A stretch of 64,000 nucleotides of DNA from Nocardioides bizhenqiangii (GTDB lineage: Bacteria; Actinomycetota; Actinomycetes; Propionibacteriales; Nocardioidaceae), in assembly GCF_034661235.1 (NCBI RefSeq), contig NZ_CP141059.1, positions 2,479,501 to 2,543,500 of the forward strand, in the 5' to 3' direction. Under the pieces are notes generated by a model. That model had not been told where the DNA came from, did no database searches, and saw nothing but the letters and a program-made list of their open reading frames with translations. Below are positions 32,941 to 54,900 of the stretch, piece by piece. The position numbers and the translations under genes are program-made. How positions within the stretch are numbered: the first letter of the stretch is position 1; each line of letters opens with the position of its first letter.

Positions 32941-32954
32941 TAGAACACGTTACA
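32941..32954. promoter_or_regulatory. KstR operator between kshA and an acyl-CoA dehydrogenase gene
   Basis: TAGAACACGTTACA matches the KstR pattern TnnAACnnGTTnnA at every fixed position. It ends one base from the kshA start codon and 69 bases from the divergent acyl-CoA dehydrogenase start, so it can repress both. KstR releases DNA when it binds 3-oxo-cholestenoyl-type CoA thioesters. Confidence 0.85.
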
Positions 32955-33023
32955 GTTTTGCCGGTAGTCTGACAACGAACACCGCGTTCGGCAGCGGTTG
33001 ATCCCAGTCACACAGGAGGCCTC

Positions 33024-34217
33024 GTGCACGTCGAGTTGGAGCCGCAGCAGATCGCGCTGCGCGAGGAGCTGCGGGAGTACTTCGCGGAGCTGGTCACCCC
33101 CGAGATCAGGGCGGGACTCTCGTCCGCGACCGGCGAGTTCGGCGAGGCGGGCGTCTACAAGGACGTCATCCGCCGGATCGGCGCGGACGGCTGGCTCGGC
33201 ATCGGCTGGCCCAAGGAGTACGGCGGGCAGGACCGCTCGATGATCGAGCAGCTGATCTTCACCGACGTGGCTGCCGTCGCCGGCGTGCCGATCCCCTACC
33301 TGACCCTGAACACTGTGGGGCCGACGATCATGCGGTTCGGGACCGACGAGCAGAAGGAGCTCTTCCTCCCCAAGATCCTGGCCGGCGACCTCCACTTCTC
33401 GATCGGCTACTCCGAGCCCGGCTCCGGCACCGACCTGGCGTCGTTGCAGACCAAGGCGGTGCTCGACGAGGCGGCCGGCGAGTGGGTGATCAACGGGCAG
33501 AAGATGTGGACGTCGCTCATCCAGTACGCCGACTGGATCTGGCTGGCCTGCCGCACCGAGCCCGACCAGCCCCGCCACAAGGGGCTGTCCATGATCCTGG
33601 TGCCGGCCGACTCCCCCGGCGTCTCCTACACGCCGGTGCACACGGTCGCGGGAGTCGGCACCTCGGCGACGTACTACTCCGACGTCCGGGTGCCCGCCGG
33701 CAACCTGGTCGGCGAGCGGGGCGGCGGCTGGGCGCTGATGACCAACCAGCTCAACCACGAGCGGGTCGCCCTCACCTCGGCCGCGCCGCTCATCCACTCA
33801 CTCAAGCTGGTGCGCGAGTGGGCGAGCGAGACCGTGAACCCCGACGGCCGCCGGGTCATCGACACCGAATGGGTGCAGATCGCCCTCGGGCGGGCCCACG
33901 CCCGGATCGAGGCGCTCTCGCTCATCAACTGGAAGCTGGCGGCCGACGCGGATCACGGTGTCGCGCTGTCCCCCGCGGAGGCGTCGGCCACCAAGGTCTA
34001 CGGCTCCGAGCTCGCGACCGAGGTCTACCGCAGCCTGATGGAGATCGTCGGTCCGCACGCCGGGGTCACAACGGACTCCCCCGGCGCCGCGGTCGCCGGG
34101 CGCCTCGAGCGTTTCTATCGGTCCTCGCTGGTGATGACCTTCGGCGGCGGCACCAACGAGATCCAGCGCGACATCATCGGCTACGTCGGCCTCGGCCTCC
34201 CGGCCGCCAAGCGATAG
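33024..34217 (+). CDS. Acyl-CoA dehydrogenase, steroid side-chain type, larger subunit
   Basis: FAD-dependent dehydrogenase of 397 residues. It has the N-terminal helical domain, the beta domain with YSEPGSGTDLASLQT, and the C-terminal GGGTNEIQRDIIG signature. The MCAD-type catalytic Glu (before GT) is Gly here; Glu246 in NHERVAL sits at the alternative isovaleryl-type position, as in the ChsE4 (FadE26) subunit. With the next, shorter gene it should form an alpha2beta2 dehydrogenase of the ChsE/FadE class acting on steroid-CoA side chains. GTG at 33024 has CAGGAGG upstream. It shares a KstR operator with kshA. Confidence 0.85.
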   Translation: MHVELEPQQIALREELREYFAELVTPEIRAGLSSATGEFGEAGVYKDVIRRIGADGWLGIGWPKEYGGQDRSMIEQLIFTDVAAVAGVPIPYLTLNTVGPTIMRFGTDEQKELFLPKILAGDLHFSIGYSEPGSGTDLASLQTKAVLDEAAGEWVINGQKMWTSLIQYADWIWLACRTEPDQPRHKGLSMILVPADSPGVSYTPVHTVAGVGTSATYYSDVRVPAGNLVGERGGGWALMTNQLNHERVALTSAAPLIHSLKLVREWASETVNPDGRRVIDTEWVQIALGRAHARIEALSLINWKLAADADHGVALSPAEASATKVYGSELATEVYRSLMEIVGPHAGVTTDSPGAAVAGRLERFYRSSLVMTFGGGTNEIQRDIIGYVGLGLPAAKR

Positions 34218-34229
34218 GGCACCACCACC

Positions 34230-35264
34230 ATGGACTTTCTCTTCACCCCTGAGCAGGACGAGGCGGCGGCGCTGGCGGCCGAGATCCTCGCCGACAAGGC
34301 GACGGTCGAGCGGATGAAAGCGGTCGAGGCGGCCGGTGACCGCTTCGACCACGAGCTCTGGGCGACCCTCGGCGACGCCTTCGACTGGTCCGAGCTCGAC
34401 CTGATCGAGCTCGCGCGGGTGCTGGTCGAGGTCGGCCGCAAGGTGGCACCGGTGCCGCTCGCCACCCATGGCGCCTGTGTCGCCTTCCTCGGCGGGCTCG
34501 GCCGTGCGGCCGACGCGGCGGTGTACGCCGCCGCGGTCGCCGAGGAGCGCGACCACCTCCCGGCCGCTCCGACCGTCGTCGCCGACGCCCAGGGCGCCCT
34601 GACCGGCGCCAAGACGCTGGTCCGGGGCGGCATGACCGCCGACGCTCTCCTGGTGACGGCGACGGGCCCGGACCCCTCGACAGACTCGGGGACCACGACA
34701 GCGGTCTACCTGGTCGATCCCTCCTCGGCGGGTGTGGACCGCAAGGCCCAACGCACGAGCGACGGCGACCGGTCCGCGCTCATCACCTTCACCGACGCGC
34801 CCGCCGAGCTCCTCGGCCACGAAGTGCTGCGGTTCCACGAGCTGCTCACCGTGTGTGCCGCAGCCGAGCAGCTGGGCGTGACCGAAGGTGCGCTCGCGCT
34901 CACCTCGGAGTACGCCAAGACACGGGAGCAGTTCGGGCGCCCGATCGGCACCTTCCAGGCCGTGTCGCAGCGCCTCGCTGACGGCTTCATCGACGTCCTC
35001 GGCCAGCGGCTGACCCTGTGGCAGGCGGTCTGGCGGCTCCAGGAGGTCCTGCCGGCGGCGGTCGAGGTGGCAGTCGCGAAGCTGTGGGCGGCCGACGCCG
35101 GCCACCGGCTCGCCCACACGACGGTCCATGTGCACGGCGGCGTCGGCATCGACCTCGACGGCGACGCCCACCGCTACTTCACGGCGGCGAAGCGTTTCGA
35201 GTTCCTGTTCGGCGGTGCGACCGACCAGGCGCTGACGATCGGCCGTGCCCTGTCTCGGACCTGA
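34230..35264 (+). CDS. Acyl-CoA dehydrogenase, smaller subunit
   Basis: A 344-residue acyl-CoA dehydrogenase beginning MDFLFTPEQDEAAALAAEIL, 12 bases after the preceding gene. The family middle is shortened and the C-terminus (LFGGATDQALTIGRAL) lacks the usual Glu. Such a degenerate partner is characteristic of the heteromeric steroid acyl-CoA dehydrogenases (FadE26-FadE27, FadE28-FadE29 in mycobacteria), where two subunit types share two FADs per dimer of dimers. Which side-chain cycle it serves cannot be fixed from sequence alone. Confidence 0.83.
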   Translation: MDFLFTPEQDEAAALAAEILADKATVERMKAVEAAGDRFDHELWATLGDAFDWSELDLIELARVLVEVGRKVAPVPLATHGACVAFLGGLGRAADAAVYAAAVAEERDHLPAAPTVVADAQGALTGAKTLVRGGMTADALLVTATGPDPSTDSGTTTAVYLVDPSSAGVDRKAQRTSDGDRSALITFTDAPAELLGHEVLRFHELLTVCAAAEQLGVTEGALALTSEYAKTREQFGRPIGTFQAVSQRLADGFIDVLGQRLTLWQAVWRLQEVLPAAVEVAVAKLWAADAGHRLAHTTVHVHGGVGIDLDGDAHRYFTAAKRFEFLFGGATDQALTIGRALSRT

Positions 35265-35394
35265 TAACGCCGTTCCCGTTTCCACGGCAGCGGCCGCGGA
35301 ATCAGGCATAGAGTGACGAGTCCGTTCGGGCAGGCTCCAGCCTCACACTGCCCGCGGCGGATCTCATTCGACAAGGACAATTGGGGGATGGCCC

Positions 35395-36546
35395 GTGGCC
35401 ACCATGACTCGTGCGCGTCTGCGCACTCTCGCCGGCGCGTTCACCGCCGGACTCCTCGCCCTGAGCATGGGCCTGCAGATCTCGGCACACGCGTCCGTGT
35501 CGCCGACACCGACCAAGACCGTCGGCCTCTCCGGCGCCGCGGTTTACGACCTCACCGTGCTCGACAGCGGACGGGTCATCCTCGGCGGCCTGTTCAGCGC
35601 TGTCGGCCCGCTCGCTCGCAGCAACGTCGGCGCCATCCTGCCCACCGGCAAGGCCGACCCGGGCTTCGCGCCGACCACGAACGGCGAGGTCAGAGCGGTC
35701 GCCGCCTCGGAGGACGGCACTCGCGTCTTCATCGGCGGCACTTTCACCGAGGTCAACGGCGTGCCCCGACAGAACCTCGCCGCGGTCGACGCCGTGACCG
35801 GCGCGCTGATCACCGACTGGCAAGCGGACACGACGGGCACCGTCCCGACGGTGAAGTCCTTCGCCGTGGACGGCAACCGGCTCTACGTCGGCGGCAAGTT
35901 CACCGGCATCGACGGCACGACCAAGCAGAAGCTCGCCGCGCTCGACATCGGCACCGGCGACCTCGTGTCCTGGAACACGCGGGTCAACGGAAACGTCAAC
36001 GAGGTCCGGGTCTCACCCGACGGCCAGACCGTGTGGGCGGGCGGCACCTTCACCAAGGTCAAGGGAATCGATCGGGCCTACTTCGCCGGCATCGATGCCG
36101 TCACGGGAGCGCCGACCGCCTTCAGCCGGGACTCCTGGGGAGGTTACGTCGTGACCGTCGGGGTCAGTGCTGACGGAGGCACGGTCTACGCCACCACGGA
36201 GAACAACACCATCTTCGCCTACCACCCGACGGTGTCCAACGATCCGCTCTGGGAGTCGAGGCTGAAGGGCAACACGCACGCGATGGCGATCTCGCCGACC
36301 GAGATCTACATCGGCGGTCACTTCGGGGGCTTCAACGACCCGAGCATCACGAGGCCGTACCTGGCCAGCATCGACCCTGCGACCGGCGACGCAACCAGCT
36401 GGGACCCGAAGGCCACCGGGCAGAAGAGCGGCACCTGGGCGCTGGAGATCCACGGCGACACCTTGCACGTCGGCGGCCTGTTCACCCACTTCGACGGTGT
36501 GCAGCAGCGCCTCTACGCGCGGTTCGCGGGGACCCCGACGCCGTAG
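35395..36546 (+). CDS. Secreted beta-propeller-like repeat protein
   Basis: A 383-residue exported protein. The signal peptide (TLAGAFTAGLLALSMGLQISAHA) is followed by about six repeats of roughly 50 residues with the pattern (V/L)(F/Y)(I/V)GG-x-FT-x-(V/I)-(N/D)G plus LAA(V/I/L)D-x-TG, for example RVFIGGTFTEVNG and RLYVGGKFTGIDG. Each repeat should form one blade. The domain is common in secreted actinobacterial proteins of unknown function, often with PKD or Ig modules; here it stands alone. GTG at 35395 follows GGGGGATG; ATG at 35404 is an alternative. Confidence 0.8.
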   Translation: MATMTRARLRTLAGAFTAGLLALSMGLQISAHASVSPTPTKTVGLSGAAVYDLTVLDSGRVILGGLFSAVGPLARSNVGAILPTGKADPGFAPTTNGEVRAVAASEDGTRVFIGGTFTEVNGVPRQNLAAVDAVTGALITDWQADTTGTVPTVKSFAVDGNRLYVGGKFTGIDGTTKQKLAALDIGTGDLVSWNTRVNGNVNEVRVSPDGQTVWAGGTFTKVKGIDRAYFAGIDAVTGAPTAFSRDSWGGYVVTVGVSADGGTVYATTENNTIFAYHPTVSNDPLWESRLKGNTHAMAISPTEIYIGGHFGGFNDPSITRPYLASIDPATGDATSWDPKATGQKSGTWALEIHGDTLHVGGLFTHFDGVQQRLYARFAGTPTP

Positions 36547-36570
36547 TCGGTGCGACGGGGCGTCGCCAGC

Positions 36571-37584
36571 TCACGTGGTCCTCCGCTCGAGGTAGGCGAG
36601 GCACGCGAGGGCCAGCGCGACGCCCCAGACCGGCCACAGCAGCTCCGGCGCCCACGCCGCCCAGTCCGACCGGGCACCGGGAACCTCGGCGAGGCCGCCG
36701 ACAAGAACCAGACGCCAGAACGAGAGCCCGGCCGACAGCACCGCGCCCGCCACGAACAATCCGGGCACGAGCGCCAGCGCGAGCGGCACAGGACGCGCGC
36801 CGACCCGTGGCAGCCACGACCAGAACACCTCGCCCCAACGCGCCTGCAGTCCGCTGGTGAGCCAGGCGCCGGCCACGGCGAACAGTGCGAGGCCGAGCCC
36901 CGCGTACCGCCCCGAGCCCAGGTCGTCGAGCATCGAGCGCCGGATCCCCAGCGGGATGTCGAGAGCCCACGCGATCCGGGTCACGGCATAGAGGAGCGGT
37001 ACGACGACCGAGACCGCCACCGCCGACGGGCCCCAGCGGACCCACCTCTTCCGGCGCGTGCGACCGCCTCCGTCGAGAGACCTGGCCCGCGCGAGCGCGA
37101 CGTAGCCGGTCACCGCGATCGCCACTCCCCCGACGGCGTGGCCGACCGCGGCAGCCGAGTCGACGAACAGGCCGGCGTCGACGCGCCCCGCCGCCGGACC
37201 GACCCCGATGAGGGCCAGCAGCGTCATCGGCAGGTAGCCGAGGAACGCCAGTGCCCTCACGTCGGAGATCGCGACAGCTACGAGGGTCCCGAGACCGACG
37301 AGCGCCCATCCGGCGATCCGGACCGTCACCGGCGTTCGCGCCAGGCAGGCGATGCCCTGCCCGCCGAGCACCAGCGCCGCCGTCACGGCGAGGGTCCAGG
37401 ACATCTGCTCGGCGTTGAGCGCACCGAGGGGTGACGCCTCCTCCGGTGACCACGGGTGCGGGGTGCGTCCGACGAGGGCCAGCGAGGACAGTGCCAGGAA
37501 CACCACCGCCCAGACAGCCGCGGCCCATGGCGCCGTGTCCACTGCCCTCGGACGGGTCGCGGCGGGGTCGACCAGCGCGGTCAC
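36571..37584 (-). CDS. Multi-spanning membrane protein of unknown function
   Basis: A 337-residue protein with about eight to nine hydrophobic helices and few polar loops, one basic loop (GGGRTRRKRWVRWG, about residue 170-185) and no known motif. It starts with GTG at 37584, overlapping the DUF2867 gene stop by four bases, so the two are translated together. The response regulator and histidine kinase genes lie just upstream on the same strand, suggesting all four may belong to one regulatory unit. Confidence 0.72.
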   Translation of the reverse strand: MTALVDPAATRPRAVDTAPWAAAVWAVVFLALSSLALVGRTPHPWSPEEASPLGALNAEQMSWTLAVTAALVLGGQGIACLARTPVTVRIAGWALVGLGTLVAVAISDVRALAFLGYLPMTLLALIGVGPAAGRVDAGLFVDSAAAVGHAVGGVAIAVTGYVALARARSLDGGGRTRRKRWVRWGPSAVAVSVVVPLLYAVTRIAWALDIPLGIRRSMLDDLGSGRYAGLGLALFAVAGAWLTSGLQARWGEVFWSWLPRVGARPVPLALALVPGLFVAGAVLSAGLSFWRLVLVGGLAEVPGARSDWAAWAPELLWPVWGVALALACLAYLERRTT

Positions 37585-38195: not shown

Positions 38196-38283
38196 GGACC
38201 TACGGTCCGTCGCGTGCCGCCCGGTGCGCGTCACCCGCTGTTCGCGAACGTCTCACCCGTCAGGGTGAGACCGCATCGTCCGC

Positions 38284-38979
38284 TCAGCGCGACGACCGGC
38301 CGACCACGCCGGACTCGTAGGCCAGCACCACCGCCTGCACCCGGTCGCGCAGCTCGAGCTTGGACAGCACGTGGCCGACGTGGGTCTTGACCGTGTTCTC
38401 CGACAGGTGGAGCCGGGCGGCGATCTCGGCGTTGGTCGCACCGGTCGCCACCTCCCGCAGCATGTCGAGCTCCCGCGGCGTCAACCGCGCCCGGATGGCC
38501 TCCGCCTCCGCGTCGCTGTCGGCGGGGGTGGCGGCGACGTGCTCGATCAGCCGACGGGTGGTGGACGGCGCCACCACGCCGTGTCCAGCGTGCACCACGC
38601 GGATCGCGTCGACGATCTCCTCGGCGCGCGCGTCCTTGAGGAGGAAACCGCTCGCACCGGCGCGGATCGCGGGGAACGCGTACTCGTCGAGGTCGAAGGT
38701 CGTCAGCGCGAGCACCCGCGTGGCAGGCAGCTCCCGCGTGATGATCTCTGTGGCTCGGATGCCGTCGAGCCGCGGCATCCGCAGGTCCATGAGTACGACG
38801 TCCACGCGCCGGCCGCGGACCAGAGCGAGGGCCTCGTGCCCGTCGACCGCCTCACCGACCAGCTCGAGGTCGGACTGAGTCTCGACCATCATCCGCAGCG
38901 CCGATCGCATCAGCTCCTGGTCGTCGACCACGGCCACCCTGATCCTGTCCGGGTCCGTGACGTTGCCCGTGTCGCTCAC
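38284..38979 (-). CDS. NarL/LuxR-family response regulator
   Basis: Two-component response regulator of 231 residues. The receiver domain (residues 13-130) has the acidic pair at VVDD, phospho-acceptor Asp65 in VLMDLRMPR, Thr in LALTTF, and Lys in FLLKDA. The C-terminal LuxR helix-turn-helix is LTPRELDMLREVATGATNAEIAARLHLSE...TVKTHVGHVLSKL. It overlaps the histidine kinase gene by four bases. Likely targets are its own operon or the DUF2867 and membrane protein genes downstream. Confidence 0.94.
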   Translation of the reverse strand: MSDTGNVTDPDRIRVAVVDDQELMRSALRMMVETQSDLELVGEAVDGHEALALVRGRRVDVVLMDLRMPRLDGIRATEIITRELPATRVLALTTFDLDEYAFPAIRAGASGFLLKDARAEEIVDAIRVVHAGHGVVAPSTTRRLIEHVAATPADSDAEAEAIRARLTPRELDMLREVATGATNAEIAARLHLSENTVKTHVGHVLSKLELRDRVQAVVLAYESGVVGRSSR

Positions 38980-40166: not shown

Positions 40167-40218
40167 GGCGTCAACCTACGGCCAGGTGGGGAGAGCCGGT
40201 GCGCTCTCCCGTGGAGGT

Positions 40219-41679: not shown

Positions 41680-41680
41680 G

Positions 41681-42787
41681 TCAGATGCCGGCGATGCCGT
41701 CGAGCTTCTTGACCGTCGCCTCGAACTCCGCGACGAGATCGGCCATCACCTCGGCGACCGGCCGCACCTCGTTCATCCGGCCGACGATCTGACCGACGGG
41801 CATCGAGATCACGTCGGGGTCTCCGGAGGCGTTGATCCGGTTGTGGGCGTCGGCGACGAGCAGGTTCTGGAGGGGCATCGGCAACGGCGCCGGTGCGTCC
41901 TCATCGGCCCAGGCCTCGGTCCACTTGGTCTTGAGCAGCCGGGCCGGCTTGCCGGTGTAGATCCGGGTGCGGACGGTGTCGGAGGAAGTGGCCCGGAGGA
42001 AGGCCGTCTCCCAGCCCTGGTTGCCGGCGAGGTTGCGGTACTCCTCGGTGCCGAGCCAGATCGACCCGGTCCACACCCCCTGCGCGCCGAGCGCGAGGGA
42101 GGCCGCGATCTGGCGGCCGGAGCCGATGCCGCCGGCGCCCAGCACCGGCACGTCCTGGCCGACCGCGTCGACGATGTCGGGCGTGAGCACCATCGAGGCG
42201 ATCTCGCCGGTGTGACCACCCGCCTCGTAGCCCTGCGCGACGATGATGTCGACGCCGTTGGCGACGTGGCTCACCGCGTGCTTGGGAGCACCCGCGAGCG
42301 CCGCGACCTTGAGGCCGGCTGCATGGCACTGCTCGATCACGTCGACCGGCGGGGTGCCGAGGGCGTTGGCGATGAGCACCGGCCGGTGCTGAAGTGCGAC
42401 GTCGACGTGCGAACGCGCCATCGAGTGCAGCCAGCCGAGCACACCCTCGCGGCCCTCGCCCTCGGGGAGCGGCGGCACGCCCAGCTTGAGCAGCGTCTCG
42501 TCGACCCACTTCTTGTGGTCCTCGGGGATGTACGACGACAGGTCGGTCGACGTGCCCTCGGTGGGGATCTTCATCGGCATGACCACGTCGACGCCGTACG
42601 GCTTGCCGTCGGTGTTGTCGTCCATCCAGGTCAACGCCTTGTCGAGCTCCTCGGCGTCGTTGAACCGGACACAGCCGAGCACCCCGAGACCGCCGGCGCG
42701 CGAGACCGCGGCCGCGACGTGCTCGGACGGCGTGAACGCGAAGATCGGGTAATCGATGCCGAAGGCGTCGCAGAGGGCGGTGCGCAT
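41681..42787 (-). CDS. Nitronate monooxygenase-family flavoprotein
   Basis: FMN-dependent TIM-barrel protein of 368 residues with the family pattern: DYPIFAFT near the start, GGLGVLG, GVDIIVAQGYEAGGHTGE with the conserved His/Gly loop, and VLGAGGIGSGRQIAASLALGAQGV for phosphate binding. In mycobacterial steroid gene clusters a similar oxidoreductase (Rv3553 type) is KstR-regulated. Here it overlaps the fadD19 stop by one base (TGATG), so it is co-transcribed with a sterol-CoA ligase and could act on a steroid acyl-CoA or enoyl intermediate; its substrate is inferred, not shown. Confidence 0.83.
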   Translation of the reverse strand: MRTALCDAFGIDYPIFAFTPSEHVAAAVSRAGGLGVLGCVRFNDAEELDKALTWMDDNTDGKPYGVDVVMPMKIPTEGTSTDLSSYIPEDHKKWVDETLLKLGVPPLPEGEGREGVLGWLHSMARSHVDVALQHRPVLIANALGTPPVDVIEQCHAAGLKVAALAGAPKHAVSHVANGVDIIVAQGYEAGGHTGEIASMVLTPDIVDAVGQDVPVLGAGGIGSGRQIAASLALGAQGVWTGSIWLGTEEYRNLAGNQGWETAFLRATSSDTVRTRIYTGKPARLLKTKWTEAWADEDAPAPLPMPLQNLLVADAHNRINASGDPDVISMPVGQIVGRMNEVRPVAEVMADLVAEFEATVKKLDGIAGI

Positions 42788-44466
42788 CAGGCGGACACTC
42801 CGTTCGAGGCGGTCTGGGCGGTGCCGGCGCTCTGGGCGCTCAGCGCCATCTCCTTGGCTGCCGGGTACTGCGCCTTGCCGGTCGCGTTGCGCGGGATCTC
42901 GTCGACGAGCGTCAGCACCCGCGGCAGCTTGTAGCCCGACAGGTGGGAGCGGAGGAAGCTGCGCAGCTCCTCGAGCTCGACCTTCTGGCCTTCCCGCGCC
43001 TGGACGACGGCGGCCACGGTCTGGCCGTACCTCTCGTCCGGCAGGCCGACCACGAGCACGTCGTAGACGGCCGGGTGCCCCTTGATCGCCATCTCGACCT
43101 CTTCGGGGTAGACCTTCTCGCCACCGGTGTTGACGCAGTTCGAGCCACGGCCGAGGAGCGTGATCCGGTTGCCCTCCTCGATCCGCGCGTAGTCGCCGGG
43201 CACGGAGAAGCGCACGCCGTCGATCTCGTAGAACGTGCGCTCCGACTTCTCGGGGTCCTTGTAGTAGCCGACCGGGACGTTGCCGGACCGCGCCGTGCGA
43301 CCCACCTTGCCGACGTCGGCGACCGGGTCGAGGACGTGGCCCTCGTCGGAGATGACCGCGGTGTTCGGTCCGATCGACACCACCGGTCCGTCGGTCGACA
43401 GGGCGCTCGCGTCCTGCATGCCGGTGCCCTGGAAGCCGGTCTCGGACGAGCCGACCGAGTCGGTGAAGATCGCGTTGGGGAATCTGGCCATCCAGCGTTC
43501 CTTCACCGCCTTGCTGAAGACGGCGGCGCTGCTGGCGATGGCGAAGAGGGTCTGCCCGTTGAAGGGGTGATCGGTCTCCTGGCTGGCCTCGTAGGCCTCG
43601 ATCAGCGGTCGCGCCATCGCGTCGCCGGTCATGAACATCATGTGGGCCTGCTCGCGGTCGACGATCTCCCACGTGCGCACCGGGTCGAACTTCGGCTCGA
43701 GGATGGTGAGCTGTCCGGAGAACAGGTGCATGAGCAGGCTGGCCTGGGCGCCGCCGTGCATGAGCGGGCTGAGCGGGAACGTGACGAGGCCGGGCTCGGC
43801 GGCCTTCTTGGACTGGTCGTGCTCGCTGAGCGGTTCGCCGGTCGTGAAGTCGATCCCACCACCGAGCACCCGCCAGAAGTCCTCGTGACGCCACATGACG
43901 CCCTTCGGATAACCGGTCGTGCCACCGGTGTAGATGATGTGGATGTCGTCCGCGCTGCGCTCGCCGAAGTCACGAGCGTCGCTCTGGTCCGCGACGGCGT
44001 CGGCGAGGGCGACCCCGCCATACCCAGCTATGACCGCGAAGTCGTCCTCAGACCCCGGCTCGATCGGGTCCGGCAGCACGACGAAGGTCTGCAGCAGCTG
44101 GTGCTTCGGGGACACCTCGGCCACCAGGTCGCTGTAGACCCGGTCGTGCACGAGTCCCTTGAGGTCGGCGTTGTCGAAGATGTAGTCGAGCTCGCCGGCG
44201 ACGTAGCGGTAGTTCACGTTGATCGCCACCGCCCGCACCTTGAGGATCGCCAGCAGGGCGATCACGTGCTCGATGCTGTTCTTGGCGTAGAGACCGACGT
44301 GGTCGCCGGTGCCGATCCCGCGCGCGGCCAGGAAGTGCGCGAGCTTGTTGCTCTCGGACTCCAGCTCCGCATAGGTGATCGTGCGCTCACCCACCTTGAC
44401 GGCGGGCCTGTCCGGCGAGGCGACGTCGACGGCGTGTTCGAAGAGGTCGGCGATGTTCAGAGCCAC
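42787..44466 (-). CDS. fadD19: FadD19-like steroid-CoA ligase
   Basis: Acyl-CoA synthetase of 559 residues. It has the ATP-binding IIYTGGTTGYPKGVMW motif, a DSVGSSETGFQG region, the FSVPGDYARIEEGNRI hinge area, and the adenylation Lys in PRNATGKAQYP. FadD19 activates the C26 carboxyl of sterol side chains and is needed for C24-branched sterols such as sitosterol in Rhodococcus. Assignment rests on sequence resemblance and on the divergent echA19 arrangement also found at Rv3515c/Rv3516. GTG start at 44466 lies ten bases from a KstR operator with no clear ribosome-binding site. Confidence 0.85.
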   Translation of the reverse strand: MALNIADLFEHAVDVASPDRPAVKVGERTITYAELESESNKLAHFLAARGIGTGDHVGLYAKNSIEHVIALLAILKVRAVAINVNYRYVAGELDYIFDNADLKGLVHDRVYSDLVAEVSPKHQLLQTFVVLPDPIEPGSEDDFAVIAGYGGVALADAVADQSDARDFGERSADDIHIIYTGGTTGYPKGVMWRHEDFWRVLGGGIDFTTGEPLSEHDQSKKAAEPGLVTFPLSPLMHGGAQASLLMHLFSGQLTILEPKFDPVRTWEIVDREQAHMMFMTGDAMARPLIEAYEASQETDHPFNGQTLFAIASSAAVFSKAVKERWMARFPNAIFTDSVGSSETGFQGTGMQDASALSTDGPVVSIGPNTAVISDEGHVLDPVADVGKVGRTARSGNVPVGYYKDPEKSERTFYEIDGVRFSVPGDYARIEEGNRITLLGRGSNCVNTGGEKVYPEEVEMAIKGHPAVYDVLVVGLPDERYGQTVAAVVQAREGQKVELEELRSFLRSHLSGYKLPRVLTLVDEIPRNATGKAQYPAAKEMALSAQSAGTAQTASNGVSA

Positions 44467-44476
44467 AGCCCGAGAC

Positions 44477-44490
44477 TAGAACACGTTTCA
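44477..44490. promoter_or_regulatory. KstR operator between fadD19 and echA19
   Basis: TAGAACACGTTTCA fits TnnAACnnGTTnnA. It lies 10 bases from the fadD19 start and 22 bases from the echA19 start in a 46-base divergent promoter, so one operator should control both genes. Confidence 0.85.
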
Positions 44491-44512
44491 CTTTTTCGCT
44501 AGCGTGGTTCGT

Positions 44513-45355
44513 ATGACGACCACGGATTCTCCGTCGCCCCAGCCCGAGTCACCGACCCCCAGCGAGGCCGGGGAACCGCACTGCCTGGTCGAGCTGGTCG
44601 ACCACACCCTCGTGGTCACCATGAACCGGCCCGAGGTGCGCAACGCGCTCTCCGGCGAGATGCTCGCGATCATGGAGCAGGCCTGGGACCGGGTGAACTC
44701 CGACCCCGAGGTGCGGGTCTGCATCCTCACCGGCGCCGGCGGCGCGTTCTGCGCGGGTGCCGACCTCAAGTCGATGAACAAGCGGCCGCCGTCGGAGAGC
44801 TTCGAGTCCGGCGAGTACGACCCCTCGGTGATCAAGGGCCTGCTCAAGGGGTTCCGGCTCACCAAGCCGCTCATCGCCGCGGTCGAGGGTCCCGCCATCG
44901 CCGGCGGCACCGAGATCCTGCAGGGCACCGACATCCGGGTCGCCGGCGAGTCGGCGAAGTTCGGCGTCTCGGAGGCCCGATGGAGCCTCTACCCGATGGG
45001 CGGGTCCGCCGTCCGACTCCCCCGCCAGATCCCCTACACGGTGGCCGCCGAGCTGCTTCTGACCGGCCGGCACGTCAAGGCGCCCGAGGCCAAGGAACTG
45101 GGCCTGATCGGCCACGTCGTCCCCGACGGTCAGGCGCTCGCCAAGGCGCACGAGCTCGCCGACCTGATCTCGGCCAACGGTCCGCTGGCGGTCCAGGCCA
45201 TCCTGAGGACGATGCGGGACTCCGAGGGCAAGCACGAGGACGACTGCTGGGCCGACGACGCTCGCGTCGGTGCCGCGGTGTTCGCGTCCGAGGACGCCAA
45301 GGAGGGCCCGCGCGCCTTCATGGAGAAGCGCAAGCCCGAGTTCAAGGGCCGCTAG
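44513..45355 (+). CDS. echA19: EchA19-like enoyl-CoA hydratase
   Basis: Crotonase-fold hydratase of 280 residues, expected to hydrate a steroid enoyl-CoA in the side-chain cycle. Oxyanion-hole segments are [18 protein letters not shown] and [22 protein letters not shown]; the following [22 protein letters not shown] includes a Glu at the active-site position. It is divergent from fadD19 across a shared KstR operator. No Shine-Dalgarno precedes ATG 44513; TAGCGT seven bases upstream resembles a -10 element and suggests a leaderless mRNA. A GTG at 44504 is the other option. Confidence 0.85.
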
Positions 45356-46084: not shown

Positions 46085-46203
46085 CGCCGGACACCGCTAG
46101 CCGGTAGCAGTACCTGATCCGACACCCAGCGGTCGCGTTCCACTCACAGGAGCGCGGAAGCGACCTAGGTTGAGGAGACCGGCCATTCCTGGGGGATCGA
46201 GCC

Positions 46204-48624: not shown

Positions 48625-48631
48625 CCGAGGC

Positions 48632-50245
48632 TCAGCCGACGGTCCGGCCCTGGCCCTCCCAGTACTGCGCTCGCAGCGCCTTCTTGTCCGGCTTGCCGAG
48701 CGCGGTGAGCGGCAGCGCGTCGGCCACGATCACGTCCTTGGGCACGTGCACCGAGCCCTTCCGTTCCTTGACCGACGCCCGGATCTCCTCGGTCATCCGC
48801 GCGATCGCGTCGTCGTCGCGCGGCGCGTCCGGGCGGAGTACGACGATCGCGGTGACCGCTTCGCCGAACTTCTCGTGCGGCGTCCCGATGACGCCGACCT
48901 GGGCCACCATCGGGTGCTCGGCGACGACGTCCTCGACCTCCCGCGGGAACACGTTGAAGCCGCCGGTCACGATCATGTCCTTGGTCCGGTCGACGATGTA
49001 CCAGAAGCCGTCCTCGTCCTCCCGGGCGACGTCGCCGGTGTGCATCCAGCCGTCGCGGAAGGTCTCCGCCGTCTGTTCCGGCAGCTGCCAGTAGCCCCCG
49101 GCGAGCAGTGGGCCGGCCACGCAGATCTCCCCCGGCTCGCCCTGTGGCACCGGTTTCCCGTCCTCGCCGAGCAGCGCGGTGCGCAAGAACGCGGCCGGGC
49201 GGCCGCACGACGTCAGCCGCTTCTCGTACGGCTTGCCGTCGGCGTCGACGTGGTCGCCCTTGGGGAAGTACGTGATCACCATCGGCGCCTCGGACTGGCC
49301 GTAGTACTGGGCGAAGATCGGGCCGAATCGCTCGACCGCCTCCTTGAGCCGGACCGGGTTGATGGCCGACGCGCCGTAGTACACGGTCTCGAGCGAGGAA
49401 AGGTCGCGGGTCCGCGAGTCCGGGTGGTCCATCAGCGCGTAGAGCATGGTCGGCACGACCATCAGCGAGTTGATCCGCTTCTCCTCGATCGTCGCCAGCA
49501 CCTCGGCCGGGTCGAAGCGGGCGGAGACGAAGAGGGTGCCGCCCTTGATCACGGTCGGCACGAAGAACGCGGCGCCCGCGTGCGACAGCGGCGTGCACAT
49601 CAGGAACCGCGGGTTCTCGGGCCACTCCCACTCGGCGAGCTGGATCTGGCTCATCGTGTTCATCGCCTGCACGGTGCCGATGACGCCCTTCGGCTTGCCC
49701 GTCGTACCACCGGTGTAGACGAGGGAGACGATGTGGTCGGGCGGCAGGGTGCGCGCGTGGAGCGGCTGCGGGTCGAACGTCGCGGCGACGGCGGTCAGGT
49801 CCGAGCCCACCGCCGTCAGCGACTCGGGGACCGGCCCGATCGTCAGCACCTGCTTGAGCCCCGGGCACTTCTCGAGGAGCTCGACCGCGCGGTCGGCGAA
49901 GTAGGGGTCGATGATCAGGGTCGTGATGCCGGCGTCGTTGATCACGTAGGCGTGGTCATCGGCCGACCCGAGCGGGTGCAGGGACGTCCGCTGGTAGCCC
50001 TGGGTCTGACCCGCGCCGAGGATGAAGAGCACCTCGGGTCGGTTGAGGGCGAGCAGCGCGCCGGGCGCGCCGGTCCCGGCGCCGAGGGACTCGAAGGCCT
50101 GGACGTACTGGCTGATCCGCGCCGCGACCTCCCCACCGGTCAGGGTGACGTCACCGAGGTGGATCACCGGCCGGTCCTTGTGCCGTTTGAGGGCGGCGAC
50201 CATCAGGTGGCCGTTGTGGGCGCCGATCCGCAGGCTGTCATCCAT
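48632..50245 (-). CDS. fadD8: FadD8-like acyl-CoA ligase
   Basis: Acyl-CoA synthetase of 537 residues, closely resembling mycobacterial FadD8 along its length: THNGHL-like start (AHNGHLMVAALKRHKDRP), ATP motif VYTGGTTGKPKGVIG, the FAQYYGQSEAPMVITYFPKGDH segment, DRTKDMIVTGGFNVFPREVEDVVAEHP, and Lys in TALGKPDKKALRA. Substrate not established; the KstR operator ten bases upstream of the ATG suggests a sterol-derived acid. No ribosome-binding site is visible between operator and start. It converges with the PQQ dehydrogenase gene, seven bases apart. Confidence 0.85.
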   Translation of the reverse strand: MDDSLRIGAHNGHLMVAALKRHKDRPVIHLGDVTLTGGEVAARISQYVQAFESLGAGTGAPGALLALNRPEVLFILGAGQTQGYQRTSLHPLGSADDHAYVINDAGITTLIIDPYFADRAVELLEKCPGLKQVLTIGPVPESLTAVGSDLTAVAATFDPQPLHARTLPPDHIVSLVYTGGTTGKPKGVIGTVQAMNTMSQIQLAEWEWPENPRFLMCTPLSHAGAAFFVPTVIKGGTLFVSARFDPAEVLATIEEKRINSLMVVPTMLYALMDHPDSRTRDLSSLETVYYGASAINPVRLKEAVERFGPIFAQYYGQSEAPMVITYFPKGDHVDADGKPYEKRLTSCGRPAAFLRTALLGEDGKPVPQGEPGEICVAGPLLAGGYWQLPEQTAETFRDGWMHTGDVAREDEDGFWYIVDRTKDMIVTGGFNVFPREVEDVVAEHPMVAQVGVIGTPHEKFGEAVTAIVVLRPDAPRDDDAIARMTEEIRASVKERKGSVHVPKDVIVADALPLTALGKPDKKALRAQYWEGQGRTVG

Positions 50246-50255
50246 GGGCCCAGAC

Positions 50256-50269
50256 TAGAACGTGTTCTA
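50256..50269. promoter_or_regulatory. KstR operator upstream of fadD8
   Basis: TAGAACGTGTTCTA fits TnnAACnnGTTnnA and is a nearly perfect palindrome, the most symmetric of the four in this window. It is 10 bases from the fadD8 start. The gene on the other side starts 61 bases away and has no steroid link. Confidence 0.85.
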
Positions 50270-50329
50270 GATCGGGGACAAGATCCGCTTTCCGTCTCGT
50301 GACGGTCCGGGCGACGGTAGCGTCCCGGC

Positions 50330-51613
50330 ATGGCCAAGCGTCCTCGCCAGCACGGATTCGCCGCCTTCGCTCCCGAGGACGTCGCCGACGCCCGGGCCGG
50401 ACGACCTCCGGGCGACCTCAGGGAGTACGGCGCCTCACGCGGCCTCGCGTGGCTCGACCGGGCCCGCCCGCTCGGGTTCTCGGCCGGCTCGCCGGGGTTC
50501 GACGAGTACCGGTTCAGCGTGCTCCGCGGCGACCTGCCGGGAGGCCGTTACGGCGTACTGATGCACCAGCTGATGGAGATCCCCGTCACGAAGTCGCCGA
50601 ACGTCAGCGGCAAGCTCTACGGCTCCGTCGTCAAGAGCGGCGGCAGCTGGTGGTCGTTCTCGCTGCCCAACCGCACCGACATCCCGATCGTCGGCGACTT
50701 CCTCGACCCGCCCACGGACCACAGCCCGCGCGAGCCGTTCGACACCAACGCCGTCTGGATCCCGACCACGGCCGTGGGGACCCACGTCCCGGAGAGCGTG
50801 CTGCCGCTCTTCCTCACCCGGCTCGACCGCCGCGACAAGCTGTCGCCGTACGACTTCGACCAGCGGCGCGACCTCGGCTCGGCGGGACTGCCGGACTGGC
50901 GACTGCGCACGCACGGAACCCCCGTGAGCGACGCGCTGTTGCACCGGCTCCTGACGCCGAGCGTCCGGGAGGTGCTCACCCGCCGTGCGAACGATCCCTA
51001 CTTCGGTGTGCTGCTGTTGCGCGGCACCATGGTGGTGCGTCGCAACGGGTTCGTGCTTGACCCCGATGAGCTGGACCGGCTGGCGGCCGACATGTGCACG
51101 ATCGCCGATGCCGTCCGCGACGCCTGCCTGCCGGAGCTGGCGCCTCGCCCGCTCACCGAGCCGCTGCCGTCACCGCGGTCCGAGCACCCCGAGGTCACCC
51201 CGGCCTGGCGGGACGGCTACATCCAGGTCGCCACCCGGCTCGGGCTGGCGATGGAGGACCCCGACGAGCTGCACCGCGCCTTCCCCGCGCTCCCGCTGCC
51301 CGGCCGCGTGGTCGCGGCGATGTACGGCGACCTCGGCGGTGGCGTCCAGGGACGCCTGGTCTACGCCGCCGAGATGAACCTCAGGGCGGCGGAGCGGGCC
51401 CGCGGGGCGGTCCTCCTCACCGCGCAGCCCGGGACACCGGACACGCCCCCTGCCGGCGAGCGTCAGGACGACCGGCTGCTCATCCACCACCAGCGCTCCG
51501 GCATGCACGTCCTGGTCAGCGCGCAGACGGCCGGGTTCTACCGCGAGGAGCAAGAGGGGCTGCTCGACCGGGCCCTGGCCTTCGCTCGCGAGCGCGGGCT
51601 GGTCCGGCGCTGA
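50330..51613 (+). CDS. Hypothetical protein, 427 aa
   Basis: Not recognised. The soluble protein has no signal peptide or transmembrane helix. It opens with a basic MAKRPRQHGFAAFAPEDV, contains a long N-terminal domain with WSFSLPNRTDIPIVGDF and a second half with GVLLLRGTMVVRRNGFVLDPDELDRLAADMCTIADAV, where strand-helix alternation suggests a lipid- or ligand-binding fold, and ends with ESTQ-type polar loops and FYREEQEGLLDRALAFARERGL. The second half, with an apparent repeat of the first (R/GF..D...L), could be a duplication. It converges on the SigE gene. Confidence 0.65.
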   Translation: MAKRPRQHGFAAFAPEDVADARAGRPPGDLREYGASRGLAWLDRARPLGFSAGSPGFDEYRFSVLRGDLPGGRYGVLMHQLMEIPVTKSPNVSGKLYGSVVKSGGSWWSFSLPNRTDIPIVGDFLDPPTDHSPREPFDTNAVWIPTTAVGTHVPESVLPLFLTRLDRRDKLSPYDFDQRRDLGSAGLPDWRLRTHGTPVSDALLHRLLTPSVREVLTRRANDPYFGVLLLRGTMVVRRNGFVLDPDELDRLAADMCTIADAVRDACLPELAPRPLTEPLPSPRSEHPEVTPAWRDGYIQVATRLGLAMEDPDELHRAFPALPLPGRVVAAMYGDLGGGVQGRLVYAAEMNLRAAERARGAVLLTAQPGTPDTPPAGERQDDRLLIHHQRSGMHVLVSAQTAGFYREEQEGLLDRALAFARERGLVRR

Positions 51614-51673
51614 GTCGATAGCACGCGTTGCAGGTGTGGGGTGGTCACGAGGTCCTCACCCTCTAGGGACCAG

Positions 51674-52168
51674 TCACTCCGTCGACGCGATAGCCGCTGA
51701 CTGCTCCTCGCCCGACTGTTGACGGCGCAGACGCGCCAGCGCGTCGCGGGCATACGACTTGACACTTCCCACCGAGATGCCGAGAGCAGCGGCCGTGTCG
51801 GCCTCGGTGAGGTCGTCGAGGTAGCGCAACACAAGAACCGCGCGCTGCTGCGGCGACAGCCTGCGCAGGTCCTCGAGCAGCGTGATCCGATCGGTGCTGT
51901 CATGATGCATCGTCTCCGGGACCGCGTCGGTGGTCACCTCTCGCCAACGACGACCGCGCCATCGACTCACCGACTCGCGCGCGAGCACCTTCCGGACGTA
52001 CGGCTCTGGGTGGTCCTTGATTCGCCGCCACTTCGGCACCACCTTGATCAGCGCTGACTGGACGAGGTCCTCGGCGTCGTGAGGGTCGCCGGTGAGCAGA
52101 TAGGCCGTCCGCAGCAGCGCGCCTCTGCGAGCGACAACGAACTCTTCGAAGTCGTCGTACCCGGTCAT
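51674..52168 (-). CDS. SigE-family ECF RNA polymerase sigma factor
   Basis: Short sigma-70 family factor of 164 residues. Region 2 is FVVARRGALLRTAYLLTGDPHDAEDLVQSALIKV with the DAEDLVQ core-binding segment; region 4 is LSPQQRAVLVLRYLDDLTEADTAAALGISVGSVKSYARDAL. This layout fits the TIGR02983 SigE family (sometimes called SigE-like ECF40 relatives) of Actinobacteria. ATG at 52168 overlaps the stop of the upstream membrane-protein gene by four bases, unusual in that the membrane partner is translated first. Confidence 0.9.
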   Translation of the reverse strand: MTGYDDFEEFVVARRGALLRTAYLLTGDPHDAEDLVQSALIKVVPKWRRIKDHPEPYVRKVLARESVSRWRGRRWREVTTDAVPETMHHDSTDRITLLEDLRRLSPQQRAVLVLRYLDDLTEADTAAALGISVGSVKSYARDALARLRRQQSGEEQSAAIASTE

Positions 52169-53271
52169 GACGCACCACCCTGTGCGTCGAGCGCTTCTGC
52201 GATCAGGTCGGTGGCGAACGCGACCCGGTGAGGCGCTCCTGCGGTCACGACCACGTGGCGCCGGGCCGGGTCCTCGAACGCAGGGTCGGCGCCCGCGATG
52301 TCCAGGGCGACGACCGCGCCGTTGGCGTACTTCGGGTCGTTCGCGTCACCAGAAGAGCTCTCGGGTTTCCAGTGGCCAAGCAGGATCTCGGAACCGACGA
52401 CGCCCACGACGTCGCACAGCACCGGCACCTCGAACGGTGGTGCCTGCGGGTCTTCGGTCCCCGCCTCCTGGATGCGCTGCGTCTCACACAACCGTGGACC
52501 TTCCGGAAGTACCAGCAGGTCCTTCCCTCCGTAGGGCCATCCGTATCCGAGGTACGGCTGGCCGGGATACGCCCCGAGGTTGACCAGCTTCGGGGCCGTG
52601 CCCGGCTCCCACACCCATCCGTCTACGTCGGTTGCGCGCTCCACGCCGGTCTCTTGGCTGGCGGCCTCGCTCCGCACCGCGTGGCCGACGAGGTGGGTGG
52701 CATCGATCCAGAAGCCTCCGCCGCTGCGGATCTTGAACTCGAAGTCGGCCGAGTAGGTCCTCCCACTCACCAGGTCGTGGGCGACCAGCTCTCCCCCCGG
52801 GCGCTCATAGGCGATCGTGCGCCCGTCGGGTGACAGCGCGACGCCTGGGTCAGCAGCCGCGTACTGGACGTCGACGCGCAGGTCGATCGGGAGCGTCCCG
52901 AATGTCCCGGTCTCCGCGACGAGACCGACGACTTCCGGCTTGCCGCCGCCTGCGCGAGGGGTCACCCAGATCGCGGCCAGCGATCCGGGAGCGTCGCCGA
53001 GCTCAGGCAGTTCCCGCCCAATGGGGTATTCGATCGGCAGCGAGATGTCGACGGTCCCCGCCGGCTCAGGGTCGGAGCCATCGCGACCGCCGTCGGCCAG
53101 GCGTACACCGATGCCGGCGCCGACAGCGCCCACCACCAGCACGGTGGCAGCGACTGCCGCGGCCCGGAGACGTTGGGCACGCTTCCCACGCGCCCAGAGC
53201 TCGGCCGGGGGCGCACCTCCCGTCGGTGCCTCGTCCGCCAGCTCCGCCAATCGCTCATGCAGGGTGTCCAT
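52165..53271 (-). CDS. Membrane protein, putative partner of the SigE-family sigma factor
   Basis: A 368-residue protein with a cytosolic N-terminal part (MDTLHERLAELADEAP...), one transmembrane helix (LRAAAVAATVLVVGAVGAGIGV, about residues 37-58), and a large extracellular domain that looks like a beta-propeller (e.g. DGRTIAYERPGGELVAHDLVSG). No zinc anti-sigma motif is visible, so it is only a candidate anti-sigma or sensor. It is co-translated with the sigma factor. A long hairpin lies in its leader (53286-53322) next to a GGAGC ribosome-binding site. Confidence 0.72.
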   Translation of the reverse strand: MDTLHERLAELADEAPTGGAPPAELWARGKRAQRLRAAAVAATVLVVGAVGAGIGVRLADGGRDGSDPEPAGTVDISLPIEYPIGRELPELGDAPGSLAAIWVTPRAGGGKPEVVGLVAETGTFGTLPIDLRVDVQYAAADPGVALSPDGRTIAYERPGGELVAHDLVSGRTYSADFEFKIRSGGGFWIDATHLVGHAVRSEAASQETGVERATDVDGWVWEPGTAPKLVNLGAYPGQPYLGYGWPYGGKDLLVLPEGPRLCETQRIQEAGTEDPQAPPFEVPVLCDVVGVVGSEILLGHWKPESSSGDANDPKYANGAVVALDIAGADPAFEDPARRHVVVTAGAPHRVAFATDLIAEALDAQGGAS

Positions 53272-53285
53272 GGGTGCTCCATTCG

Positions 53286-53322
53286 AAAGCCTCACTCATC
53301 AACACGCGATGAGCGAGGCTTT
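53286..53322 (-). promoter_or_regulatory. Leader hairpin of the sigma-factor operon
   Basis: Bases 53286-53300 pair with 53308-53322 over 15 positions with one mismatch, closing the loop AACACGC. On the minus strand it sits just before the ribosome-binding site of the gene starting at 53271, so it may control its translation or act as an attenuator. It could instead terminate the upstream gene at 53397-53777. Confidence 0.55.
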
Positions 53323-53396
53323 TCGAGGGGTCCAACCCGGAACCGGCTGAAGACAGGGTCAACTCGTTAGACATCCGCTAACGCTGCGGTCCGTCG

Positions 53397-53777
53397 CTAC
53401 CCATCGACCTCGACCGGCACCTGGAGCGGCGGTACTCCGCCGAGCCTGCGCTGGTAGCGCACATGGTCGCCGTGCACCTCGAGGGCGCGCCACAAGGTCT
53501 GGTGAGCCGCCCACGGCAGCGGCTCGGCGCCGTCGTACCAGCTCCCGCCGAAGCTGATCCACACCGGCGTCCACTCCGCGGCGACGTCCCAGGCACCGCG
53601 CTGGCGCATCACCAGGCTGCGCCGGAGCTGGAAGGCGGTCCGCTCGCCGTCGACGCAGATGGGAGCGGTGGCGACCGGCCACACCCGGAGGTCGAGCTCC
53701 ATCAGCTCGAGCTCCAGGTCCGCGAGCGCGCGCGGGTCCACCAGGACCGTGGCGACGTTCTCGTGCGGCTCCCGCAT
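53397..53777 (-). CDS. Hypothetical protein, 126 aa
   Basis: A small soluble protein, not recognised. It has a helical start (RALADLELELMELDLRVW), a beta-rich middle (TAFQLRRSLVMRQRGAW) and a Trp-rich end (WISFGGSWYDGAEPLPWAAHQTLWRALEVHGDHVRYQRRL). No signal peptide or catalytic motif is evident. It lies 33 bases from the stop of the F420-type oxidoreductase gene on the same strand and may be expressed with it. Confidence 0.55.
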   Translation of the reverse strand: MREPHENVATVLVDPRALADLELELMELDLRVWPVATAPICVDGERTAFQLRRSLVMRQRGAWDVAAEWTPVWISFGGSWYDGAEPLPWAAHQTLWRALEVHGDHVRYQRRLGGVPPLQVPVEVDG

Positions 53778-53809
53778 GCCCGCACGGTAATACCTGGCGG
53801 GGACGTTCG

Positions 53810-54853
53810 TCAGGCGAGTAGCTCGGCTACCTGCCGGACCTCATCCGCACTGCGACAGCTGAGCAGCAGCGTGGTCACCCCGGTCTCCTCCCAGGCGGCG
53901 ACCCGGTCCTTGACGTAGGCGGCGTCGCCGATGATGTGCATCTCCTCGACGAGCTCGTCAGGGATCAGGGCCGTCGCCTCCTCGCGCTTCTGGGAGAGGA
54001 ACAGCTCCTGGACCTGGTCGGTGATGGTGGCGTACCCCATCCGCTCGAAGACGTTCTTGTGGAAGTTCTGGTCCTTCGCGCCCATACCGCCCATGTAGAG
54101 GGCGATCACCGGCTTGATCCCCTCGACGACCGCGCGGCGCTCGTCCTCGGTCTCGGTGATCTGGAGGTGGCACGTCGCGGCGATCTCGAAGTCGGCGCGA
54201 GTACGGCGTGCGCTCTGCCGCGCGAAGCCCTCGTCCAGCCACGGCTGGTACATCCCCGCGCTCTTCGGCGTGTAGAAGATCGGGATCCAGCCGTCGGCGA
54301 TCTCGGCCGTCTGGGCGACGTTCTTGGGTCCCTCGGCGCCGAGCCAGATCGGGATGTCGGCCCGCAAGGGGTGGACGATCGGCTTGAGCGGCTTGCCGAG
54401 TCCCACCGACCCGGGTCCGTTGTAGGGCAGCGGGTAGTGCGGGCCGTCGTTGGTCACCGGACCCTCACGCGCGAGCACCTTGCGGATGATGTCGACGACC
54501 TCGCGGGTGCGGGCCAGCGGCTTGGCGAACGGCTGGCCGTACCAGCCCTCGACCACCTGCGGGCCACTCACGCCCATGCCGAGGACGACCCGCCCACCGG
54601 TGAGGTGGTCGAGCGTGAGCGCGTGCATCGCGATCGACGTCGGTGACCGTCCCGACATCTGCACGATCGACGTGCCCAGCCGGACCCGGGACGTCTCCCG
54701 TCCCCACCAGGCAAGCGGGGTGAACGCGTCGCTCCCCCATGCCTCGGCGGTGAAGATGGCGTCGAACCCCGCGTCCTCCGCGGCCGCCACCAGCTCCGCG
54801 ACGCCCTGCGGGGGCTGCGCGCCCCAGTAGCCCAGCTGCAGTCCCAGCTTCAT
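53810..54853 (-). CDS. LLM-class F420-dependent oxidoreductase
   Basis: Luciferase-like TIM-barrel enzyme of 347 residues that probably uses F420 or FMN. Family features are MKLGLQLGYWGAQPPQG, AEDAGFDAIFTAEAWGSDAFTPL, GRVVLGMGVSGPQVVEGWYGQPF and PIWLGAEGPKNVAQTAEIADGWIPIF. It resembles the mycobacterial Rv3520c type, which likewise lies divergent from a DUF35 gene followed by ltp4 and ltp3. The reaction in sterol breakdown is unknown. The shared KstR operator is 33 bases upstream of its ATG. Confidence 0.86.
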   Translation of the reverse strand: MKLGLQLGYWGAQPPQGVAELVAAAEDAGFDAIFTAEAWGSDAFTPLAWWGRETSRVRLGTSIVQMSGRSPTSIAMHALTLDHLTGGRVVLGMGVSGPQVVEGWYGQPFAKPLARTREVVDIIRKVLAREGPVTNDGPHYPLPYNGPGSVGLGKPLKPIVHPLRADIPIWLGAEGPKNVAQTAEIADGWIPIFYTPKSAGMYQPWLDEGFARQSARRTRADFEIAATCHLQITETEDERRAVVEGIKPVIALYMGGMGAKDQNFHKNVFERMGYATITDQVQELFLSQKREEATALIPDELVEEMHIIGDAAYVKDRVAAWEETGVTTLLLSCRSADEVRQVAELLA

Positions 54854-54886
54854 GAGACACAGCATGCCACCACTTGAAGGCGAAAC

Positions 54887-54900
54887 TAGAACGTGTTTCA
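54887..54900. promoter_or_regulatory. KstR operator of the LLM / DUF35-ltp module
   Basis: TAGAACGTGTTTCA fits TnnAACnnGTTnnA. It lies nine bases before the DUF35 gene and 33 bases from the divergent LLM oxidoreductase start, within a promoter of 56 bases, and should control both. Confidence 0.85.

Follow-up and report, generated by a model that had tools for sequence, protein, structure and literature searches.

The window analyzed here is a 64-kb stretch of the genome of Nocardioides bizhenqiangii (genome 2479501-2543500, in a single contig of 4,546,893 bases), in which four short motifs stand before genes of sterol degradation and very probably represent operators of KstR, a repressor of the TetR family. 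The sites and the genes around them are as follows, with positions in the window.

30294..31385, minus strand: KshB-like ferredoxin-type reductase (no family over its cut-off)
31755..32939, minus strand: kshA, 3-ketosteroid 9alpha-hydroxylase oxygenase (523 bits to PDB KshA 4qdc)
32941..32954: KstR-type operator TAGAACACGTTACA, between kshA (minus) and two acyl-CoA dehydrogenase genes (plus)
33024..34217, plus strand: acyl-CoA (coenzyme A) dehydrogenase, fadE26-type by position (no family over cut-off)
34230..35264, plus strand: acyl-CoA dehydrogenase, fadE27-type by position (no family over cut-off)
41681..42787, minus strand: nitronate monooxygenase-family protein, sharing its strand with fadD19
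42787..44466, minus strand: acyl-CoA synthetase, FadD19 type by position beside echA19 (NF005863 subfamily, 695 bits, cut-off 543)
44477..44490: KstR-type operator TAGAACACGTTTCA, between the fadD19-type gene (minus) and echA19 (plus)
44513..45355, plus strand: echA19 enoyl-CoA hydratase (NF051848, 437 bits, cut-off 400)
48632..50245, minus strand: fadD8 fatty-acid-CoA ligase (NF004838, 1007 bits, cut-off 875)
50256..50269: KstR-type operator TAGAACGTGTTCTA, a perfect palindrome, before fadD8 (minus)
50330..51613, plus strand: 427-amino-acid protein opposite fadD8 (no family assigned)
53810..54865, minus strand: LLM F420-dependent oxidoreductase, Rv3520c family (TIGR03559, 484 bits, cut-off 335)
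54887..54900: KstR-type operator TAGAACGTGTTTCA, between the LLM gene (minus) and the ChsH2-like gene (plus)
54910..55875, plus strand: ChsH2-like protein (OB-fold and zinc-ribbon domains)
55888..56964, plus strand: lipid-transfer protein/thiolase-like (NF005924, 576 bits, cut-off 419)
56964..58127, plus strand: thiolase-domain protein (NF006180, 720 bits, cut-off 514)
58127..58960, plus strand: enoyl-CoA hydratase (NF004519, 464 bits, cut-off 337)

A sequence-only reading of this DNA had placed the four motifs at these positions and assigned a steroid-type gene set to each, and most of its gene calls prove right, including kshA, echA19, the fadD19-type ligase, fadD8, and the LLM gene; the gene that it called DUF35 carries the OB-fold and zinc-ribbon domains of ChsH2. 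Genes without sterol annotation stand between the units (for instance a response regulator at 38284-38979), and neither NCBIfam (at 1e-3) nor Pfam (at 1e-8) has a match to the 427-amino-acid protein opposite fadD8, for which tblastn also gave nothing usable in the fadD8 loci of 26 relatives.

Apart from the four motifs, the window contains no exact match to TnnAACnnGTTnnA / TNNAACNNGTTNNA; the mean expected from 100 dinucleotide shuffles is 0.08, and none of the shuffles reaches four. A scan of the whole genome, which the sequence-only reading had proposed for both the motif and kstR, finds 51 matches versus five for the reversed pattern. The genes around all 51 were called with a simple codon-position predictor, on which the gene starts given here depend. 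A perfect TAGAAC or GTTCTA half is present in 33 matches, all but one of them at the predicted 5' end of a gene; we correct this count of 32 to 31 of 33 because one site, in a GH5 gene discussed below, is probably intragenic, just inside the coding start after the GTG. Among the 18 matches without a perfect half, 13 sit inside predicted genes and probably arise by chance, and for this reason we do not take all 51 for operators. The palindrome TnnAACnnGTTnnA is thus present above chance in target promoters, and its targets belong to the degradation of the sterol side chain and of rings A/B (kshA, echA19, fadD8, steroid thiolase, kstD, P450, and GMC oxidoreductase), with sites of the cluster beyond the window standing before the steroid thiolase gene (NF005889, 677 bits, cut-off 515), kstD (NF005882, 906 bits, cut-off 788), and a P450 gene. 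Altogether, 13 perfect-half sites fall within about 122 kb (genome 2512441-2634766), a stretch that also contains kstR (2618088), fadA5, kstD, and the P450 gene and of which the window holds the first four sites. The picture of scattered units unlike the mycobacterial arrangement, drawn when only the window was in view, is not supported in view of this result and of the motifs carried by what appear to be the matching gene pairs of Mycobacterium tuberculosis; the impression of a spread over 22 kb was due to the window's edge. KstR2-type motifs were not found in the 182-kb cluster block. Elsewhere in the genome, tandem TTGAAC-GTTCAA palindromes at 4406697 and 4406740, near a TetR gene at 4407278, are perhaps operators of another regulator.

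As the sequence-only reading had noted, the window itself contains no kstR: none of the 62 genomic matches to TetR_N (61 over the cut-off) falls within 2479501-2543500. The genome does have one clear kstR ortholog, however, at 2618088-2618717 (209 amino acids), 75 kb past the window's end. Its product scores 135 bits against a KstR fragment versus 35 for the next among 706 predicted proteins, or 36 for the next best when all 62 TetR_N places are read stop to stop, and 193 bits against the PDB chains of KstR versus 89 against the next PDB protein; it also matches TetR_C_20. The closest named KstR records, at 88%, are those of Nocardioides silvaticus and N. immobilis, and within the DNA-binding domain, the segment VALGTLYRYFPSKIHLL shows two differences from the solved KstR. 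The kstR promoter carries a one-mismatch site, TAGAACGTGTTCCT, as autoregulation would have it. In the 80 kstR loci retained for comparison, the site upstream of kstR is exact in 29, reduced to the core in 46, and neither in five, versus a core site in 0/80 for a control stretch inside kstR. Ten of these 80 loci (L136, L140, L148, L160, L162, L165, L166, L167, L181, and L184) contain no perfect-half site at all, and the one-mismatch site before kstR persists in nine of the ten, which suggests a reduced KstR system.

The link between repressor and motif extends across the family. We sought KstR at an E-value of 1e-30 in 148 family genomes, that of N. bizhenqiangii included, and counted a stricter motif, TAGAACNNGTTNNA, on both strands, so that a perfect palindrome counts twice. 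At least eight matches are found in 52 of the 64 genomes with KstR versus none of the 84 without it (medians of 27 and 2, against a median of 1 in both groups for the reversed-pattern control), and the motif is thus not common in family genomes without kstR. Of the outcomes that would have spoken against the sequence-only reading, both a motif common in unrelated promoters and the lack of a KstR homolog are therefore contradicted. Within Nocardioides, the four query proteins of the window co-occur in the same 27 of 40 genomes. Counting our own genome, an exact operator precedes the ChsH2-like gene in 27/27 loci and fadD8 in 25/27; before echA19, it is exact in 14 of 27 loci, has one mismatch in 12, and is absent in one; before kshA, the corresponding numbers are 12, 16, and two of 30, the two site-free loci both being paralogs (L216 and L217, left out of the spacing comparison below). 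The loci L205 and L215 belong to a single genome.

On these grounds, we give a probability of about 0.93 to the four motifs being predicted operators of KstR, which would repress the sterol-degradation promoters until a sterol product releases it. Motifs, single clear ortholog, kstR promoter site, link between kstR and motif, and operator conservation are all read directly from sequence; binding, repression, and ligand release are inferred. According to this scheme, a KstR dimer on the operators would keep RNA polymerase off the promoters, and its release would be brought about by a sterol breakdown product, namely a CoA ester or an acid derived from the sterol, in line with published work on the mycobacterial repressor. 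Two observations fit this reading less well. Twelve of the 64 genomes with KstR show no motif enrichment, and KstR alone therefore does not imply a large regulon. In addition, kstR is not divergent from fadE34 as it is in mycobacteria, a point of synteny that does not strictly define the system: the divergent neighbor here is a 428-amino-acid gene that corresponds to a glycosyltransferase gene in the nearest relative (L108), and a 661-amino-acid acyl-CoA dehydrogenase lies about 4 kb from kstR.

With 62 TetR_N matches in the genome, the operators might instead belong to another TetR repressor of KstR-like specificity. The protein encoded at 2628606 comes to mind, since a perfect-half site adjoins its gene and no PDB entry matches it better than KstR. 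That match is one of 35 bits versus 193 for the ortholog, however, and the gene has a palindrome of its own, TGGACACATGTCCA, directly upstream (L020:12179-12192); we therefore rejected it as KstR and regard it as likely a separate regulator inside the sterol cluster, whose gene overlaps the start of a P450-like gene. More generally, motif enrichment tracks the kstR ortholog across the 148 genomes, the kstR promoter retains an exact or core site in 75/80 loci, and the DNA-binding segment of the ortholog is nearly that of the solved KstR, all of which makes a different TetR repressor a very improbable owner of these sites. Still less credit can be given to four chance matches that happen to lie near sterol genes: the shuffles and the genome-wide excess argue against them, and the conservation of the operators in relatives already refutes them.

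The regulon can be considered another member of a known system, since KstR regulons have been published for Mycobacterium and for N. simplex. Four gene pairs of M. tuberculosis, Rv3515c/Rv3516, Rv3520c/Rv3521, Rv0551c/Rv0552, and Rv3525c/Rv3526, are presumably those of fadD19/echA19, LLM/OB-fold, fadD8, and kshA, respectively. Their intergenic regions, listed with a KstR motif in Table 3 of Kendall 2007, the first three as positive in electrophoretic mobility shift assays and the last with the assay not determined (PMC1995591), appear to correspond to the same gene pairs as in the window. N. bizhenqiangii resembles M. smegmatis and M. tuberculosis in the palindrome, the orthologous TetR repressor, and the site at the kstR promoter, and differs from them in having fadD8 inside the sterol cluster and kstR not divergent from fadE34 (PMC1995591). 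A further difference is the site before a korA-type gene, whereas Rv2455c is not named in the text of PMC1995591, a comparison made by M. tuberculosis gene number. Closer at hand, publications on N. simplex VKM Ac-2033D report 71 predicted KstR operons, 27 of them induced by phytosterol, and assign kshA, kshB, fadE26/27, fadD19, and echA19 to KstR as here; they list kshA and fadD19 under cluster A, apart from kstR, which is assigned to cluster B, whereas all of these lie in one stretch of about 122 kb in N. bizhenqiangii (PMC7807495, PMC7593942). What is less familiar is the frequent overlap of operators with the −10 boxes of predicted leaderless promoters and the KstR-type site before the korA-type gene.

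Regarding the first of these features, the predicted −10 boxes at the window's operators are the following.

32947..32952, minus strand: predicted −10 box TAACGT lying within the operator, 7 nucleotides upstream of the kshA ATG
44473..44478, minus strand: predicted −10 box TAGTCT, its first two bases being the operator's end; fadD19 GTG 6 nucleotides downstream, putatively leaderless
44500..44505, plus strand: predicted −10 box TAGCGT, echA19 ATG 7 nucleotides downstream, with the operator over the putative −35 region
50252..50257, minus strand: predicted −10 box TAGTCT overlapping the operator's end, fadD8 ATG 6 nucleotides downstream
54899..54904, plus strand: weak predicted −10 box CACTTT overlapping the operator's end, ATG 5 nucleotides downstream (by eye, not scored leaderless)

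To look at this layout across the genome, we took the 32 perfect-half sites and the kstR site, whose 55 sides were oriented towards their genes. TANNNT occurs at fixed registers, at base 12 in 20 of the 55 sides and at base 10 in seven, and in 18 of the 33 perfect-half sites, a TANNNT overlapping the operator (registers 2, 10, or 12) is followed 6-7 nucleotides on by an in-frame ATG or GTG. Any leaderless signature is found in 29/55 sides versus 67/245 other genes of the surrounding stretches (Fisher P = 4e-4). In relatives, the comparison covers 180 of 210 sides (27 had no usable match, 26 of these being the gene at 50330, and three had no operator). The fadD19 start codon lies 8-12 nucleotides past the operator in 26/26, every one at 10-11, and the same spacing holds for 25/26 ChsH2-like, 19/24 fadD8, and 10/26 fadE sides. 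The last base of the operator is A in all 81 sides with this spacing versus 71 of the 99 others, a contrast whose P-value would overstate the case, since these are related genomes and the sides stem from only about seven promoters. It can be proposed from these sequence features that many operators include or abut the −10 box of a leaderless promoter and that, on the sides with 8-12 nucleotides, the outer A of the consensus may double as the second base of that box. Transcripts would then begin at, or within about a base of, the start codon, and one dimer would cover the −10 box of one gene and, where some pairs diverge, also the −35 region of the opposite gene.

Several counts temper this view: the signature is not confined to operator-bearing genes, as its presence in those 67 of 245 other genes indicates; the 8-12 nucleotide spacing holds for 0/27 kshA, 0/25 echA19, and 1/26 LLM sides of relatives; and in the 80 kstR-flank loci, the same test finds a leaderless layout on only 62 of 209 sides. 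For echA19, the start codon stands at 22-23 nucleotides in 17/25 relatives, consistent with a −10 box further down. It is also conceivable, if rather unlikely in our judgment, that the outer A/T and the GTCT/GTTT flank represent an extended KstR contact instead of a −10 box and that the short leaders simply reflect compact promoters. The flanks are indeed partly symmetrical (gaaac before, gtttc after), and in many of the mycobacterial sites of PMC1995591, the motif is preceded by AC and followed by GT. An extended contact sits less easily with the terminal A, invariant at 8-12 nucleotides and variable elsewhere (subject to the relatedness just mentioned), and with the constant fadD19 spacing. 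Single cases resembling an operator at a leaderless promoter have precedents. Uhia's work of 2011 reportedly had a KstR site at the promoter of MSMEG_5228, whose transcript begins at the start codon or close to it. For kstD3 of Rhodococcus ruber, a KstR site next to or over the promoter has been described, where the leaderless state is only proposed (PMC5348764). Each of these is one gene, whereas the layout recurs here at 18/33 sites and in relatives. An operator fused to the −10 box of a leaderless promoter would explain part of the consensus itself.

The second feature concerns a site before the gene for the alpha subunit of a 2-oxoacid:acceptor oxidoreductase (genome 412322), followed by the beta-subunit gene; we call the two korA and korB. 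The korA product matches TIGR03710 (661 bits, cut-off 483), which only designates the general 2-oxoacid subfamily, and the beta subunit passes no model; the substrate is likely 2-oxoglutarate. Taking 29 Nocardioides korA loci beyond that of our own genome, with an upstream reach of 300 bases, the site is present in 18 of 20 sterol-positive loci (17 exact, one core) versus 0/9 sterol-negative ones (P = 5e-6); a genome counts as sterol-positive here by its possession of the four window proteins, with kstR sought in a minority of these genomes. In other genera, with a reach of 400 bases, the site is found in 11 of 15 loci with KstR (eight exact, three core; one locus is a paralog) versus 0/6 without it, the korA search in 30 genomes having left ten without a korA match (two with KstR, eight without). 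One sterol-negative Nocardioides genome has kstR yet no korA site. One gene family occupies the divergent upstream position in 39 of the 50 korA loci; the site is nearer korA than this neighbor and is present in several loci where the neighbor differs, and korA is therefore the likelier target.

We incline to the view that a korAB-type 2-oxoacid:ferredoxin oxidoreductase, probably one acting on 2-oxoglutarate, has probably come under the control of KstR in Nocardioidaceae; this would wire a variant step of the tricarboxylic acid cycle and a supply of reduced ferredoxin directly to sterol breakdown. A rival possibility is that the enzyme acts on a steroid acid: EdcC, a different enzyme of the POR family, is encoded in an estrogen-degradation cluster (PMC8281962), though korA is also present in genomes without the sterol genes. 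A KstR–korA link is absent from the passages of PMC8044303 and PMC4845491, the matches examined among those in open-licence PMC text; likewise, the passages covering part of the matches there mention no link between KstR and a ferredoxin oxidoreductase, and the combination of KstR, ferredoxin oxidoreductase, Nocardioides, and cholesterol returned no match in the same text.

Two further sites lie outside the cluster. A perfect palindromic one, at genome 1263548, stands 11 nucleotides past the likely GTG start of a GH5 gene, whose probably secreted product has a putative endoglycosylceramidase as its best PDB match (221 bits). The gene is found in 12/27 sterol-positive versus 0/13 other Nocardioides genomes, and the site is exact in four, core in five, and absent in two of 11 relatives. 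In our own genome, the site falls in signal-peptide codons, and control would therefore need a roadblock; we retain the GH5 gene as a lead among candidate KstR targets. Among the matches listed in open-licence PMC text for GH5-type terms with KstR, none contains KstR. The other site stands before the F420 biosynthesis gene fbiC (FO synthase; genome 3546540), where by eye it forms the center of an inverted repeat of 16 bp. We rejected fbiC as a general target of KstR, the site being exact in four, a loose core in three, and absent in 17 of 24 sterol-positive relatives (one a fragment); it is present in 0/5 sterol-negative relatives.

From the perspective of the family, the genome- and family-wide controls support the use of the same KstR code for sterol breakdown outside mycolic-acid bacteria. 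For M. tuberculosis, Baughn 2009 concluded that KorAB works with beta-oxidation, considered a regulatory cascade responsive to beta-oxidation likely, predicted flux through KOR in vivo, and put forward PknG/GarA as the control of the KGD branch that competes with it (PMC2773412). For the direct control of korAB in Nocardioides, KstR would be a candidate.

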